NCBI RefSeq assembly: GCF_900091455.1
Contig: NZ_LT607412.1
Location: forward strand, 2,294,001-2,358,000
Direction: 5' to 3'
DNA length: 64,000 nucleotides
Origin: Micromonospora coriariae
Lineage (GTDB): Bacteria; Actinomycetota; Actinomycetes; Mycobacteriales; Micromonosporaceae
Shown here: positions 34,644 through 48,489 of the stretch, piece after piece
How positions within the stretch are numbered: position 1 is the stretch's first letter
Layout of the letters: each line of letters begins with the position of its first letter
The notes under the pieces: generated by a model
What the model saw: the letters and a program-made list of their open reading frames with translations, nothing else
Database searches by the model: none
What the model was told of the DNA's origin: nothing
Position numbers and translations under genes: made by a program

Positions 34644-34961
34644 TTAGTACTTGAGCAGGTTGGCGTCGTCGACGCTCGCGGAGCGTCGAGTCCGGAAGAT
34701 CGACATGATGATCGCGAGACCGACCACGACCTCAGCCGCCGCCACCACCATCACGAAGAACGCCATGATCTGACCGTTGAGGTCACCGTTGATCCGGCTG
34801 AAGGTGACCAGCGTCAGGTTGGCCGCGTTGAGCATCAGCTCCACGCACATGAACAGCACTATCGCGTTGCGCCGGACGAGCACCCCGGCGGCGCCGATGG
34901 TGAACAGCACCGCGGCGAGTACCAGGTAGTAGTTCGGCTCGACCGAGAAGAACCCGTCCAT
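34644..34961 (-). CDS. nuoK: NADH-quinone oxidoreductase subunit K
   Basis: 105-residue membrane subunit with three helices. [17 protein letters not shown] carries the buried Glu near residue 36 and [12 protein letters not shown] the second Glu near 72, both part of the proton path. The ATG overlaps the nuoJ stop (TAATG), implying coupled translation. Confidence 0.97.
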
Positions 34962-44762: not shown

Positions 44763-45436
44763 TTCGGGCCCCTGTGAGCGTGGAGGTGGTTCTGCGCGTT
44801 CATCCAGTTCTCGATTCGCAGCTGCTCCTCGCGCCCCTCGCGGACCGCCCGGGTCCACTCGGCACGCCGGGCCTTGTCGTTGCGGTACGAGGACGGCATG
44901 GAGCCGTAGGGCACGACCGGTACGTCGCCACGCTCCTGGCGGGCCGCCAGCATCTTGCGGCCGTTCGGGCCCAGCGGCTCGTACATGATCTTCTCGCGGA
45001 GCTTGAGGATCGCGTCGATCAGCATCTCCGGCCGCGGCGGGCAACCGGGCAGGTACATGTCGACAGGTACGACGTGGTCGACGCCCTGCACGATCGCGTA
45101 GTTGTTGAACATGCCGCCGCTGCTCGCGCAGACGCCCATGGAGAGCACCCAGCGGGGCTCCGCCATCTGGTCGTAGATCTGGCGCAGCACGGGCGCCATC
45201 TTCTGACTCACCCGGCCGGCGACGATCATCAGGTCGGCCTGCCGGGGCGAGGCCCGGAAGACCTCCATGCCCCAACGACCCATGTCGTAGTGCGGGCCAC
45301 CGGCGGCCATCATCTCGATGGCACAGCAGGCCAGGCCGAAGGTGGCGCCCCACACGGACGACTTCCGGGACCAGTTGACCAGCTTCTCCACCGAGGTGAG
45401 CAGGACGCCGGCGGGAAGCTTCTCCTCGATGCCCAT
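44759..45436 (-). CDS. nuoB: NADH-quinone oxidoreductase subunit B
   Basis: 225-residue PSST-type subunit carrying cluster N2, the last iron-sulfur cluster before the quinone. Ligands: the tandem Cys in [11 protein letters not shown], Cys in [13 protein letters not shown], and Cys in LPGCPPRPE. The C-terminal part after residue ~165 is an actinobacterial extension that ends close to nuoC. ATG chosen at 45436, 15 nt after the nuoA stop region, where GGAACG precedes it. Confidence 0.97.
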
Positions 45437-45450
45437 CTGACGTTCCTTCC

Positions 45451-45816
45451 TCAGTCCCAGTCCAGGCCGCCGCGCCGCCACACATAGGCGTACGCGACGA
45501 AGACCGCGACGATGAACAGGACCATCTCCACGAAGCCGAAGATCGGCAGGGCGTCGAACGAGACCGCCCAGGGGTAGAGGAAGATGATCTCGATGTCGAA
45601 GACGATGAAGAGCATCGCCGTCAGGTAGAACTTGATCGGGAACCGCCCGCCGCCTACCGGCTGGGGGCTGGGCTCGATGCCGCACTCGTAAGCCTCGAGT
45701 TTGGCCTTGTTGTAACGACGGGGACCAGCGAAGCGGGCGGCGCCAACGGAGAACAGCGAAAACGCCGCGGCGAGGGCAAACAGCCCGATGATCGGTGCGT
45801 AAGGCGAGAGCGACAT
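45451..45816 (-). CDS. nuoA: NADH-quinone oxidoreductase subunit A
   Basis: 121-residue membrane subunit with three helices, first gene of the operon. The loop [23 protein letters not shown] is the family signature near the quinone entrance (Cys in the mobile loop), followed by [16 protein letters not shown]. The ATG has AGGAG 7 nt upstream. TAGTGT (45865-45870, minus strand) is a possible -10 box, so nuo may have its own promoter as well as reading through from the menJ-like gene. Confidence 0.97.
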
Positions 45817-45919
45817 CGTTTTCTCCTGCTCGTCCTTCCCTGCCCTCGGTGCTTGACGAAAATCACACTATTCACGTCCCTCGCGGGGGCTGCCGGCGGG
45901 GGTCGATCTCTGTCCGGTC

Positions 45920-45939
45920 CGGGGCTGTGACCAGCCCCG
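45920..45939 (-). terminator. Short hairpin between menJ-like gene and nuoA
   Basis: 8-bp perfect stem (CGGGGCTG with CAGCCCCG), TGAC loop, starting 11 nt beyond the menJ-like stop; weak terminator or attenuator, no T tract. Confidence 0.45.
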
Positions 45940-45950
45940 ACACGGTCCAT

Positions 45951-47228
45951 CTACACCGCTGGCGCTACCTTCGTCATCGCGTTGATGACCCGGTCCATCG
46001 CGTCCCCGCCACGCGGGTCGGTCAGGTTGGCCAGCAGCTTGAGTACGAAGCGCATCAGCGTCGGGTGCGGCATTCCGTGCTTGGTGGCGATCCGCATGAT
46101 TTCCGGACGGCCGATCAGCTTCACGAAGATGCCGCCCAGCCGGTAGTAACCACCGAGCCGGGCCTTCAGCTCGTTCGGGTACGCCATCAGCGCCCGCTCC
46201 CGCTCGGGGCCGGCGGGCCGCGCGAGGGCCTGCAACGCGGCCTCCGCGGCCAGCTCGCCGGATTCCATGGCGTAGGCGATGCCCTCACCGTTGAACGGGT
46301 TGACCATGCCGCCGGAGTCGCCGACCAGCATCACGCCACGGGTGTAGTGCGGCACCCGGTTGAAGCCCATCGGCAGCGCGGCACCGAGGATCGGGCCGTC
46401 GGCGTTGGTCTCGTCGGTCATCCCCCAGTCTTCCGGGGTGTTGGCGAGCCAGTCGGTGAGCAGCCGGCGGTAGTTGGTCTTGCCGAACGCGGAGGACGAG
46501 TTGAGCACGCCGAGTCCGACGTTTACCCGCCCGTCACCGAGCCCGAAGATCCAGCCGTACCCGGGCAGCAGGTTGTCGCCGCTGTCCTTGCTGCGCAGCT
46601 CCAGCCAGGACTCCAGGTAGTTGTCGTCGTGCTTGACCGGGGAACGGTAGTAGCGGCGGACGGCCACGCCGATCGGCCGGTCCTCCCGCTTGGCCAGCCC
46701 GAGCGCGAGCGGGAACCGGCCGGAGACCCCGTCCGCCGCCACGACCAGCGGTGCGTGGAAGGTCGCGGGCTCCTTGCCCGGGCCCACCTCCGCCTCGACG
46801 CCGGCCACCCGACCGTCGCCGTCGAGCACCGGGCCCAGCACGTTGACGTTGGTCCGCAGCTTGGCGCCGGCGGCCACCGCCCGCTGGGCGAGCAGGTCGT
46901 CGAAGTCGAGTCTGGTGCGCACCAGGCCGTAGTTGGGGAAGCTGGCGAGCTCCGGCCAGTCCAGTTCCAGGCGTACCCCGCCGCCGATCACCCGCAGGCC
47001 CCGGTTGTGCAGCCAGCCGGCCTCGGGCGAGGTGTCCACGCCCATCCGGACGAGCTGGCGCACCGCGCGCGGGGTCAGTCCATCGCCGCAGACCTTCTCC
47101 CGGGGGAACTCGGTCTTCTCCAGCAGCAGCACCCGTACGCCGTGCCGCGCCAGGTGGTAAGCCGTCGCCGATCCACCGGGACCGGCGCCCACGACGATGA
47201 CGTCGGCATCGTGTTCCACCGCGGTCAT
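45951..47228 (-). CDS. FAD-dependent prenyl reductase, MenJ-like (geranylgeranyl reductase family)
   Basis: 425-residue flavoprotein. The N-terminal dinucleotide-binding motif is VVGAGPGGSATAYHLA, and the second FAD motif is GVMLVGDSGGMVNPFNGEGI. The family includes MenJ of mycobacteria, which saturates one isoprene unit of menaquinone, and archaeal/plant geranylgeranyl reductases. Location just upstream of nuoA and downstream of menG favours menaquinone reduction. The ATG at 47228 is chosen because GGGAGGAG lies 6 nt upstream; an earlier in-frame ATG would sit inside the candidate Rex operator. Expression is probably redox controlled through that site. Confidence 0.88.
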   Translation of the reverse strand: MTAVEHDADVIVVGAGPGGSATAYHLARHGVRVLLLEKTEFPREKVCGDGLTPRAVRQLVRMGVDTSPEAGWLHNRGLRVIGGGVRLELDWPELASFPNYGLVRTRLDFDDLLAQRAVAAGAKLRTNVNVLGPVLDGDGRVAGVEAEVGPGKEPATFHAPLVVAADGVSGRFPLALGLAKREDRPIGVAVRRYYRSPVKHDDNYLESWLELRSKDSGDNLLPGYGWIFGLGDGRVNVGLGVLNSSSAFGKTNYRRLLTDWLANTPEDWGMTDETNADGPILGAALPMGFNRVPHYTRGVMLVGDSGGMVNPFNGEGIAYAMESGELAAEAALQALARPAGPERERALMAYPNELKARLGGYYRLGGIFVKLIGRPEIMRIATKHGMPHPTLMRFVLKLLANLTDPRGGDAMDRVINAMTKVAPAV

Positions 47229-47248
47229 CCGCGCCTCCTCCCGCACGC

Positions 47249-47266
47249 TCGTGAAATGCTTCACAA
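47249..47266 (-). promoter_or_regulatory. Candidate Rex operator (NADH/NAD+ sensor site) before menJ-like gene
   Basis: On the minus strand the site reads TTGTGAAGCATTTCACGA, matching the Rex operator TTGTGAA-N4-TTCACAA at all but one conserved base. It lies just downstream of a -10-like TACACT (47280-47285) and 20 nt before the start codon, a repressing position. Rex is known to control nuo in Streptomyces. Confidence 0.7.
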
Positions 47267-47282
47267 GCCAGACGGGACGAGT

Positions 47283-47300
47283 GTATGACCGGCGTCATAC
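47283..47300. promoter_or_regulatory. Inverted repeat GTATGAC-N4-GTCATAC over the menJ-like promoter
   Basis: Perfect 7-bp inverted repeat with a CGGC centre, overlapping the -10-like TACACT. It is a second candidate operator, of a kind used by TetR- or GntR-type dimers. Confidence 0.45.
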
Positions 47301-47366
47301 CTGCCCAGGATCAGGGGTACCTAACTCGCCGATGTGACAGTCGATGACCGTCCACAGCAGCAGGTG

Positions 47367-47591
47367 TCAGGCCGGACTGGGCGCGTCCAGACCCGCATCG
47401 ACCCGGATGGTCTCCGGCAGGTGCTCGCGTAGCGCGCCGCCGGCCGCCCGGTCCAGCGCGGCCAACACCTCGGCGACGACCTGCCGGACGTCCGCCGGAT
47501 CGGCGCCCGCCAGCGCGCGCAGCTGCGCGATGAGTTCGGCCGCGTCGTCGTCGGTGGCGGCCACCGGGTCCGCCGGCTCTGCTCGGGTCAT
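47367..47591 (-). CDS. Small acidic hypothetical protein
   Basis: 74-residue protein, mostly predicted helical (DDAAELIAQLRALAG, VRQVVAEVLAALDRAAG), with no Cys, signal peptide or membrane segment. I do not recognise a family. Support for being real: strong GC bias at third positions, an ATG with TACGCT 7 nt upstream in leaderless arrangement, and a location in an otherwise empty gap between menG and the menJ-like gene. Two further in-frame codons with ATG upstream (to 47612) have no ribosome binding site. Confidence 0.55.
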   Translation of the reverse strand: MTRAEPADPVAATDDDAAELIAQLRALAGADPADVRQVVAEVLAALDRAAGGALREHLPETIRVDAGLDAPSPA

Positions 47592-47598
47592 GCGGACG

Positions 47599-47604
47599 AG
47601 CGTA
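47599..47604 (-). promoter_or_regulatory. -10 box (TACGCT) 7 nt before the small gene
   Basis: TANNNT hexamer on the minus strand with 7 nt to the ATG at 47591; leaderless type. Confidence 0.5.
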
Positions 47605-47679
47605 CGGCGCAAAGTGGACTAAAGACCGATATTCACGAAACCTGAATATTGTCGGTGTCGGGCAGCTGCGAGGGCAGGG

Positions 47680-48390
47680 CTACTCCCGGATGCCCCGGTG
47701 CAGGGCCACCACGCCACCGGTCAGGTTGCGCCACGCCACCCGTCCCCAGCCCGCCGCGGCGACCCGCCCGGCCAGCGCGGCCTGGTCCGGCCAGGCCCGG
47801 ATCGACTCGGCGAGGTACACGTACGCCTCGGGGTTGCTGGACACCGTGCGGGCCACCGCCGGCAGCGACCGCATCAGGTACGACAGGTAGACCGTCCGGA
47901 AGGCGGGGTTGACCGGGGTGCTGAACTCACAGACCACCAGCCGCCCACCGGGCCGGGTCACCCGGGCCAACTCGCGCAGGGCCGCGTCGGTGTCGTTCAC
48001 GTTGCGCAGCGCGAAGGAAATGGTCACCGCGTCGAAGCTGGCGTCGGCGAACGGCAGCCGCAGCGCGTCTCCCGCCAGCAACGGCACCTCGGGCCGGGCC
48101 CGCTTGCCGGCGTGCAGCATGCCCAGGGACAGGTCCGCGCCGACCGCGTACGCCCCGGACTGCGCCAGCTCCCGGGTCGAGACGCCGGTGCCCGCGCCGA
48201 CGTCCAGCACCCGCTCGCCCGGTCGCAGCCCCAGCGCCGCCCGGGTGGACCGACGCCAGGACCGGTCCTGGCCGAAGGAGAGCACCGTGTTGGTCAGGTC
48301 GTATCGCTCGGCCACGCCATCGAACATCGCGGCGACCTCGTGCGGCTGCTTGTCCAGGCTGGCGCGCTGGCCCTGAGGGGTACGGCTCAC
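47680..48390 (-). CDS. menG: Demethylmenaquinone methyltransferase (MenG/UbiE)
   Basis: 236-residue SAM-dependent methyltransferase that methylates demethylmenaquinone in the last ring step of menaquinone synthesis. UbiE signatures: [20 protein letters not shown] near residue 24, the SAM loop [34 protein letters not shown] and [14 protein letters not shown], then [14 protein letters not shown] at the C-terminus. The GTG at 48390 has a CAGAGT hexamer six bases upstream and GGAGGG too close to serve as ribosome site, so a leaderless start is likely. A longer in-frame reading (to 48480) adds a Pro-rich stretch and enters the upstream terminator. Confidence 0.93.
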
Positions 48391-48460
48391 CCCTCCACTC
48401 TGCCAGCCGTCCGCCGCCGGACGGTCGCTGGGTGGCGTGGCAGGGGTCCCGGCACACGAA

Positions 48461-48489
48461 GAGGGCGGGGGGTCGCCCACCCCGCCCTC
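48461..48489 (-). terminator. Terminator of the LPXTG protein gene
   Basis: 10-bp GC stem (48461-48470 with 48480-48489), 9-nt loop, 15 nt beyond the stop. Confidence 0.7.

Follow-up and report, generated by a model that had tools for sequence, protein, structure and literature searches.

A predicted Rex operator and an IdeR half-site-like element in the predicted promoter of a presumed prenyl reductase-nuo operon of Micromonospora coriariae

The window, a stretch of 64,000 nucleotides of the Micromonospora coriariae genome, carries on its minus strand a gene for a geranylgeranyl reductase family protein (GGR, 45951-47228; "menJ-like" in the preliminary description of this DNA), the first gene of a presumed operon. 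It is followed by nuoA (45451-45816; NF005922, 209.2 bits, cut-off 155) and, farther down the row, by a nuoK-type gene (34644-34961; PF00420, 102.3 bits). The order described earlier, a prenyl reductase gene and then nuo on the same strand, is borne out by these three genes, which are the ones our annotation covers. The GGR protein scores 249.9 bits with TIGR02032 (cut-off 158.8), which places it in the geranylgeranyl reductase family (GG-red-SF); of the solved structures, digeranylgeranylglycerophospholipid reductase (3oz2) matches it best. With the MenJ equivalog model NF045655 it reaches 242.2 bits against a cut-off of 700, and quinone tailoring is therefore still a guess. The position of GGR between menG (47680-48480, NF001241) and nuo is consistent with a menaquinone role, without proving it. 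A reading frame of 74 amino acids lies between menG and GGR (47367-47591, minus strand). It has a DUF2267 match under the cut-off, and 67 tblastn match stretches (E up to 1) in the 200 fetched loci.

The claimed Rex operator (ROP) is found in front of GGR, where the minus strand reads TTGTGAAGCATTTCACGA from 47266 to 47249, a single base off the Rex consensus TTGTGAA-N4-TTCACAA. Its placement is also as claimed, between a -10-like hexamer TACACT (minus strand, 47285 to 47280), 13 nt away, and the GGR start codon (ATG at 47228), 20 nt on. At up to three mismatches, the window contains two matches to the ROP pattern compared with 0.17 expected from shuffles. Across the whole genome (6,929,687 bp, one contig), four sites with at most one mismatch were found, against 0.028 expected from base composition at the GC content of the window. 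A reversed control pattern gave 16 genome matches at up to three mismatches, half of the 32 obtained with the true pattern, and three-mismatch matches to the ROP are thus untrustworthy. We class the site before GGR as a near-consensus promoter site above the chance level.

Rex itself is encoded in the genome (PF06971, 69.9 bits; NF003992, 369.9 bits, cut-off 226). One-mismatch ROPs also lie ahead of rex-hemA (L005; hemA was assigned by eye) and about 100 nt upstream of a WhiB-family gene (L006, PF02467), which, judging by resemblance, may be wblE. Both are already known sorts of Rex target. A further one-mismatch ROP is located upstream of a gene for a GTP-type PEP carboxykinase (L262:6038-6055, also in L003; genome positions 1865537-1865554; NF003253, 1007.6 bits). 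The longest open reading frame of this gene overlaps the ROP, and the family match starts only at residue 61. PEP carboxykinase is absent from the list of S. avermitilis Rex targets in the abstract of PMC5355995.

Relatives of the locus were found by a scan with the GGR protein; of the 572 stretches that it confirmed, the best 80 were kept, and nuoA was located in them by tblastn. These loci are related by descent and nearly all come from Micromonosporaceae, with four metagenome-assembled genomes placed to higher rank only. Locus L127 apparently belongs to family f38, its promoter sequence being the same as that of G201. All of the best 80 of 572 carry an ROP before GGR (78 with one mismatch, 1 with none and 1 with two), and no second ROP with up to two mismatches occurs elsewhere in their 570,200 nt. 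The -10 of these 80 loci reads TAGACT in 64 cases and TACACT in the other 16, with 12-16 nt between its end and the ROP. A perfect 7-4-7 palindrome, GTATGACGCCGGTCATAC, overlaps the -10 of the window (47283-47300, minus strand). Being present in only 13 of the best 80 of 572 loci, it was rejected as a general operator; it is possible that it serves as the site of a lineage-specific third regulator.

To cover the class, we sampled 128 genomes, of which 122 have nuoA and 106 have rex above the Pfam cut-off; G103, with a sub-threshold rex match, was counted as rex-less. The analysis took in 120 regions around nuoA, which stem from 119 of these 122 genomes (G063 is represented twice), leaving out G000 itself, G120 (contig edge) and G170 (weak match). 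Among the regions from rex-containing genomes with the GGR-nuoA layout, 66 have an ROP (up to two mismatches) at the head of the operon, 1 has none and 3 are cut by contig ends. Where nuoA comes first, the ROP precedes nuoA in 27 of 31 regions and is missing from 4. In the rex-less genomes, it is absent from 18 of 19 regions and present in 1. Thus, the ROP is found in 93/98 regions with rex vs 1/19 without (Fisher p 9e-16, with the 3 cut regions excluded and the genomes being related rather than independent). The sole ROP region without a detected rex comes from G119, an assembly of about 380 contigs that is 94% complete; since the assembly is fragmented and two genomes of the same genus have rex, the gene was probably overlooked. 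The 4 nuoA-first regions with rex and no ROP all belong to f2, a family of the window's own order (in L194, L231, L235 and L239, rex is present and nuo has no ROP at up to two mismatches), and the fifth is from G129 (f29). As the ROP stands before GGR when GGR leads and before nuoA otherwise, it marks the front of the nuo operon throughout the class, which would bring the prenyl reductase under Rex together with complex I in many families.

The Streptomyces-type genomes (f17) illustrate the second layout. In 7 of 10 genomes, the ROP is identical to the footprinted S. avermitilis operator and lies directly before nuoA, and GGR is situated 1.7-4.3 kb upstream of nuoA in 8 of 10 (cut in 1 of 10). 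No ROP with up to two mismatches precedes GGR in the 8 f17 loci that contain the GGR start. With GGR below the MenJ cut-off and the Streptomyces-type GGR lacking an ROP, the earlier suggestion that quinone tailoring is under redox control is not established. The reading of 47249-47266 as a Rex operator is well supported by the rex gene, the conservation of the site, its co-occurrence with rex and its position at the operon head, and we consider the site very probably functional.

The preliminary description overlooked a second element in the same promoter. The minus strand at 47311-47324 reads TTAGGTACCCCTGA, with one mismatch to TTAGG-N4-CCTAA, the core of an IdeR half-site consensus given in the available passages of PMC8464063. 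The core starts 58 nt upstream of the ROP, and the -10 follows 25 nt after it. Among the best 80 of 572 promoters, the core is perfect in 36, has one mismatch in 33 (hence at most one in 69/80) and two in 6. Elsewhere in the DNA of these 80 loci there is no match with up to one mismatch, compared with 3.5 expected from composition, and 19 with two; the reversed core gave none at up to one mismatch and 54 at two, which indicates that two-mismatch cores alone carry little weight. Only 2 of 1600 shuffled promoters scored 9/10 on the core. In a dereplicated set of 33 windows less than 75% identical, the core is perfect in 19, has one mismatch in 7, two in 4 and four in 3, these last 3 of 33 promoters being without a core; L097 has a weak two-mismatch core off position. 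Core and -10 are separated by 25 nt in 69 of the best 80 of 572 loci and by 26 nt in another 6, with 2 more matches placed elsewhere, 43 nt away. The stretch between the two is poorly conserved, except near the -10.

A full iron box at the nuo promoter was rejected. Over the 110 nt before the ROP in the best 80 of 572 promoters, the best scores against the 19-bp IdeR/DtxR box TTAGGTTAGGCTAACCTAA range from 9 to 16 of 19 (mostly 10-14), and the promoter of the window is not among the genome matches with up to three mismatches. This poor agreement led us to class the element as a half-site. Exact copies of TTAGG-N4-CCTAA occur four times in the genome, and three of the four are near iron-uptake genes: one lies 5 nt ahead of a gene for a siderophore-interacting protein (L248), one precedes a periplasmic binding protein gene by about 50 nt (L250) and one precedes a second gene for a siderophore-interacting protein by about 300 nt (L251). 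The fourth (L249) precedes an open reading frame with a marginal DUF2470 match under the cut-off. The genome encodes an IdeR/DtxR regulator (PF01325; NF053665, 322.3 bits, cut-off 290), whose best match in the PDB is 1fx7 and whose recognition-helix residues are the same as in 1fx7. Judged from these sequence features, the half-site is probably bound by IdeR.

To determine how far the paired arrangement extends, we defined a module as core-(24 to 27 nt)-TANACT-(9 to 18 nt)-ROP and scanned the 120 class regions together with 60 regions fetched from an order sample of 91 genomes (nuoA in 91/91, rex over the cut-off in 83/91). The module is present in f1 (4/4), f36 (4/5), f43 (4/4) and f37 (1/7), and absent from all other 160 regions of the order and class set. 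Its core-to--10 spacing is 25 nt in 9 cases and 26 nt in 4. When the spacing was left free, 11 of 12 order-level loci with a core of at most one mismatch and a scored -10 again had 25-26 nt; the exception, L282, has 76. The reversed core, allowing one mismatch, has no match in the DNA of the order and class regions. Cores with at most one mismatch are also seen outside the module, in f35 (8/8), f44 (12/12), f38 (1/2), f23 (1/9) and f29 (1/2), whereas f2 has neither ROP nor core in 10/10 regions. In f35 (L302-L309), the half-site is near nuoA in 8/8 and the ROP of 6 is far upstream, before GGR; here, Rex and IdeR inputs may act at separate promoters. In 10 of 12 f44 regions (e.g. L315, L317, L319), two ROPs sit exactly 32 nt apart before nuoA and the half-site positions vary, which would constitute another combination of the same two inputs, Rex and IdeR. 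The differently positioned half-sites of f35 and f44 indicate that the fixed activator geometry is not universal.

We propose that 47249-47324 is the promoter of the GGR-nuo operon. Since the ROP begins 13 nt past the -10, it would cover the first transcribed bases, taking the start site that the hexamer predicts. Rex without NADH would occupy the ROP and block transcription just behind the -10, at initiation or escape; when NADH rises, Rex would come off and GGR and complex I would be made. If the -10 begins at -12, the half-site is centred at about -44.5 and would extend from about -51 to about -38. This places it immediately ahead of a -35, a position at which class-II activators contact RNA polymerase. 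The likeliest role of a single Fe-loaded IdeR dimer at the half-site would be to aid RNA polymerase. Iron-rich complex I would then be built only with iron available, and the gate as a whole would need both an iron supply and high NADH to open. We infer that both Rex and IdeR bind in this Micromonospora, and consider the explanation as a whole, Rex repression and Fe-IdeR activation at the GGR-nuo promoter, to be likely. That IdeR activates from the half-site is for us an evenly balanced question, the sign of the effect being deduced from position. A fixed-geometry two-input gate shared by Micromonosporaceae and at least two more families, with single-dimer Fe-IdeR activating near -44.5 and Rex repressing, is a tentative extension that we hold at somewhat less than even. 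We do not rest the case for activation on a weak -35. In Micromonosporaceae representatives, the match to TTGACA averages 2.2/6, no better than the 2.55 of shuffles, while other families average 3.0; f36 carries the module and reaches 3-4 of 6 (f43, 2-3), and a missing -35 was therefore dropped as proof of activator dependence.

Several other explanations bear on one or the other element. The ROP being one base off the consensus leaves room for a chance match without function, a reading that is very improbable given the genome-wide expectation, the presence of the site in all of the best 80 of 572 loci and its absence from nearly all rex-less regions; it was rejected on the shuffle, genome and composition counts. 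Alternatively, the ROP might serve GGR alone, with nuo transcribed independently of Rex from a separate promoter within the 134 nt between GGR and nuoA. This gap is long enough, and f44 genomes do have ROPs and promoter-like elements near nuoA. Against this, TA[GC]ACT is absent from the GGR-nuoA gap in 80/80 of the best 80 of 572 loci, on which ground a nuoA-proximal promoter was rejected for these loci, no promoter-like or terminator-like site was called within 45400-47700, and the ROP moves to nuoA in most rex regions in which GGR does not lead. We regard a separate nuo promoter as rather improbable, and co-transcription of GGR and nuo as indirectly supported. A second ROP in the gap was found in 2 of 152 loci, with none at up to two mismatches in the other 150, and was rejected as a general feature of these 152; the order sample does have nuoA-proximal ROPs, in f44. 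Just past the GGR stop, the minus strand has a perfect hairpin, GGGGCTG-GTCA-CAGCCCC (45921-45938), without a T run; the corresponding gap of a close relative (L048) has no hairpin with a stem of at least 6.

The remaining alternatives concern the half-site. With the ROP accepted as real, TTAGG-N4-CCTAA could be bound by a regulator other than IdeR that recognises a similar palindrome, or could play a structural part in the promoter with no IdeR involved. The fixed distance to the -10 and the FNR-like 5-N4-5 symmetry would suit any class-II activator, and the N4 and flanks are unlike those of the genome's full iron boxes. However, the exact cores of the genome are mostly at iron-uptake genes, and the 14-bp core is identical to the half-site consensus in print for IdeR, which the available text of PMC8464063 places at nuo in S. 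erythraea; we find this alternative unlikely. Repression is what DtxR-family proteins are best known for, and Fe-IdeR on the half-site might instead lower complex I, for example to limit oxidative damage. As far as the accessible part of PMC10317159 goes, the majority of IdeR targets are indeed repressed, but the repressing boxes overlap the -10 or the start, whereas the element here lies upstream of the -10, at a distance of 25-26 nt. The induction of nuo by iron in other bacteria, cited in the passages available from PMC8464063, also speaks against repression, which we likewise consider unlikely. Activation by IdeR from the half-site, combined with repression by Rex, is the reading we carry forward.

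Parts of this arrangement have precedents. In S. avermitilis, Rex targets include nuoA1-N1, rex-hem, wblE, cydA1B1CD, atp, hppA and ndh2 according to the abstract of PMC5355995, which agrees with the earlier statement that Rex represses nuo in Streptomyces. In that study, the nuoA1 operator was footprinted at -42 to -16, directly before nuoA1, and the cydA1 site lies at -3 to +25. The Micromonospora promoter is like nuoA1-N1 in regulator family, consensus and operon, and the known targets rex-hem and a WhiB gene have predicted counterparts here; unlike nuoA1, its ROP stands before GGR and past the -10, nearer to the cydA1 arrangement. Within 2.4 kb upstream of nuoA, none of the 10 Streptomyces-type genomes has a half-site core with up to one mismatch. 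In Saccharopolyspora erythraea, IdeR binds a nuo-gene site as one dimer with an apparent KD of 102 nM, and a 14-bp half-site consensus, TTAGGNNNNCCTAA, was proposed, its function being left open by the authors (available passages of PMC8464063, 2021); half-sites in further species are named as a point still to investigate in those of PMC10317159. The element before GGR shares the consensus, the operon and the single-dimer type with that site. It differs in its constant distance of 25-26 nt to the -10 and in having an ROP as a partner, whereas the S. erythraea passages at hand describe neither a geometry nor a Rex site. In the open-licence literature, we found no paper joining IdeR, Rex and nuo, and none on Rex and nuo in Micromonospora. 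Already known, from these partly accessible sources, are thus Rex at nuo and, from one in-vitro case in S. erythraea, IdeR at nuo. What is added here is the occurrence of the half-site across many species, at a fixed distance from the -10 and alongside an ROP, which makes the open half-site question testable. If the proposal is true, single-dimer IdeR half-sites would gain a function, in that a DtxR-family protein would activate directly from them in a class-II-like manner, and complex I and the leading prenyl reductase would be made only with iron available and NADH high. Within the same genome, the nuo element has the TTAGG-N4-CCTAA core in common with the full IdeR/DtxR boxes at siderophore genes; unlike these, which have most of the 19-bp box, it consists of the half-site only, at a constant place before the -10.
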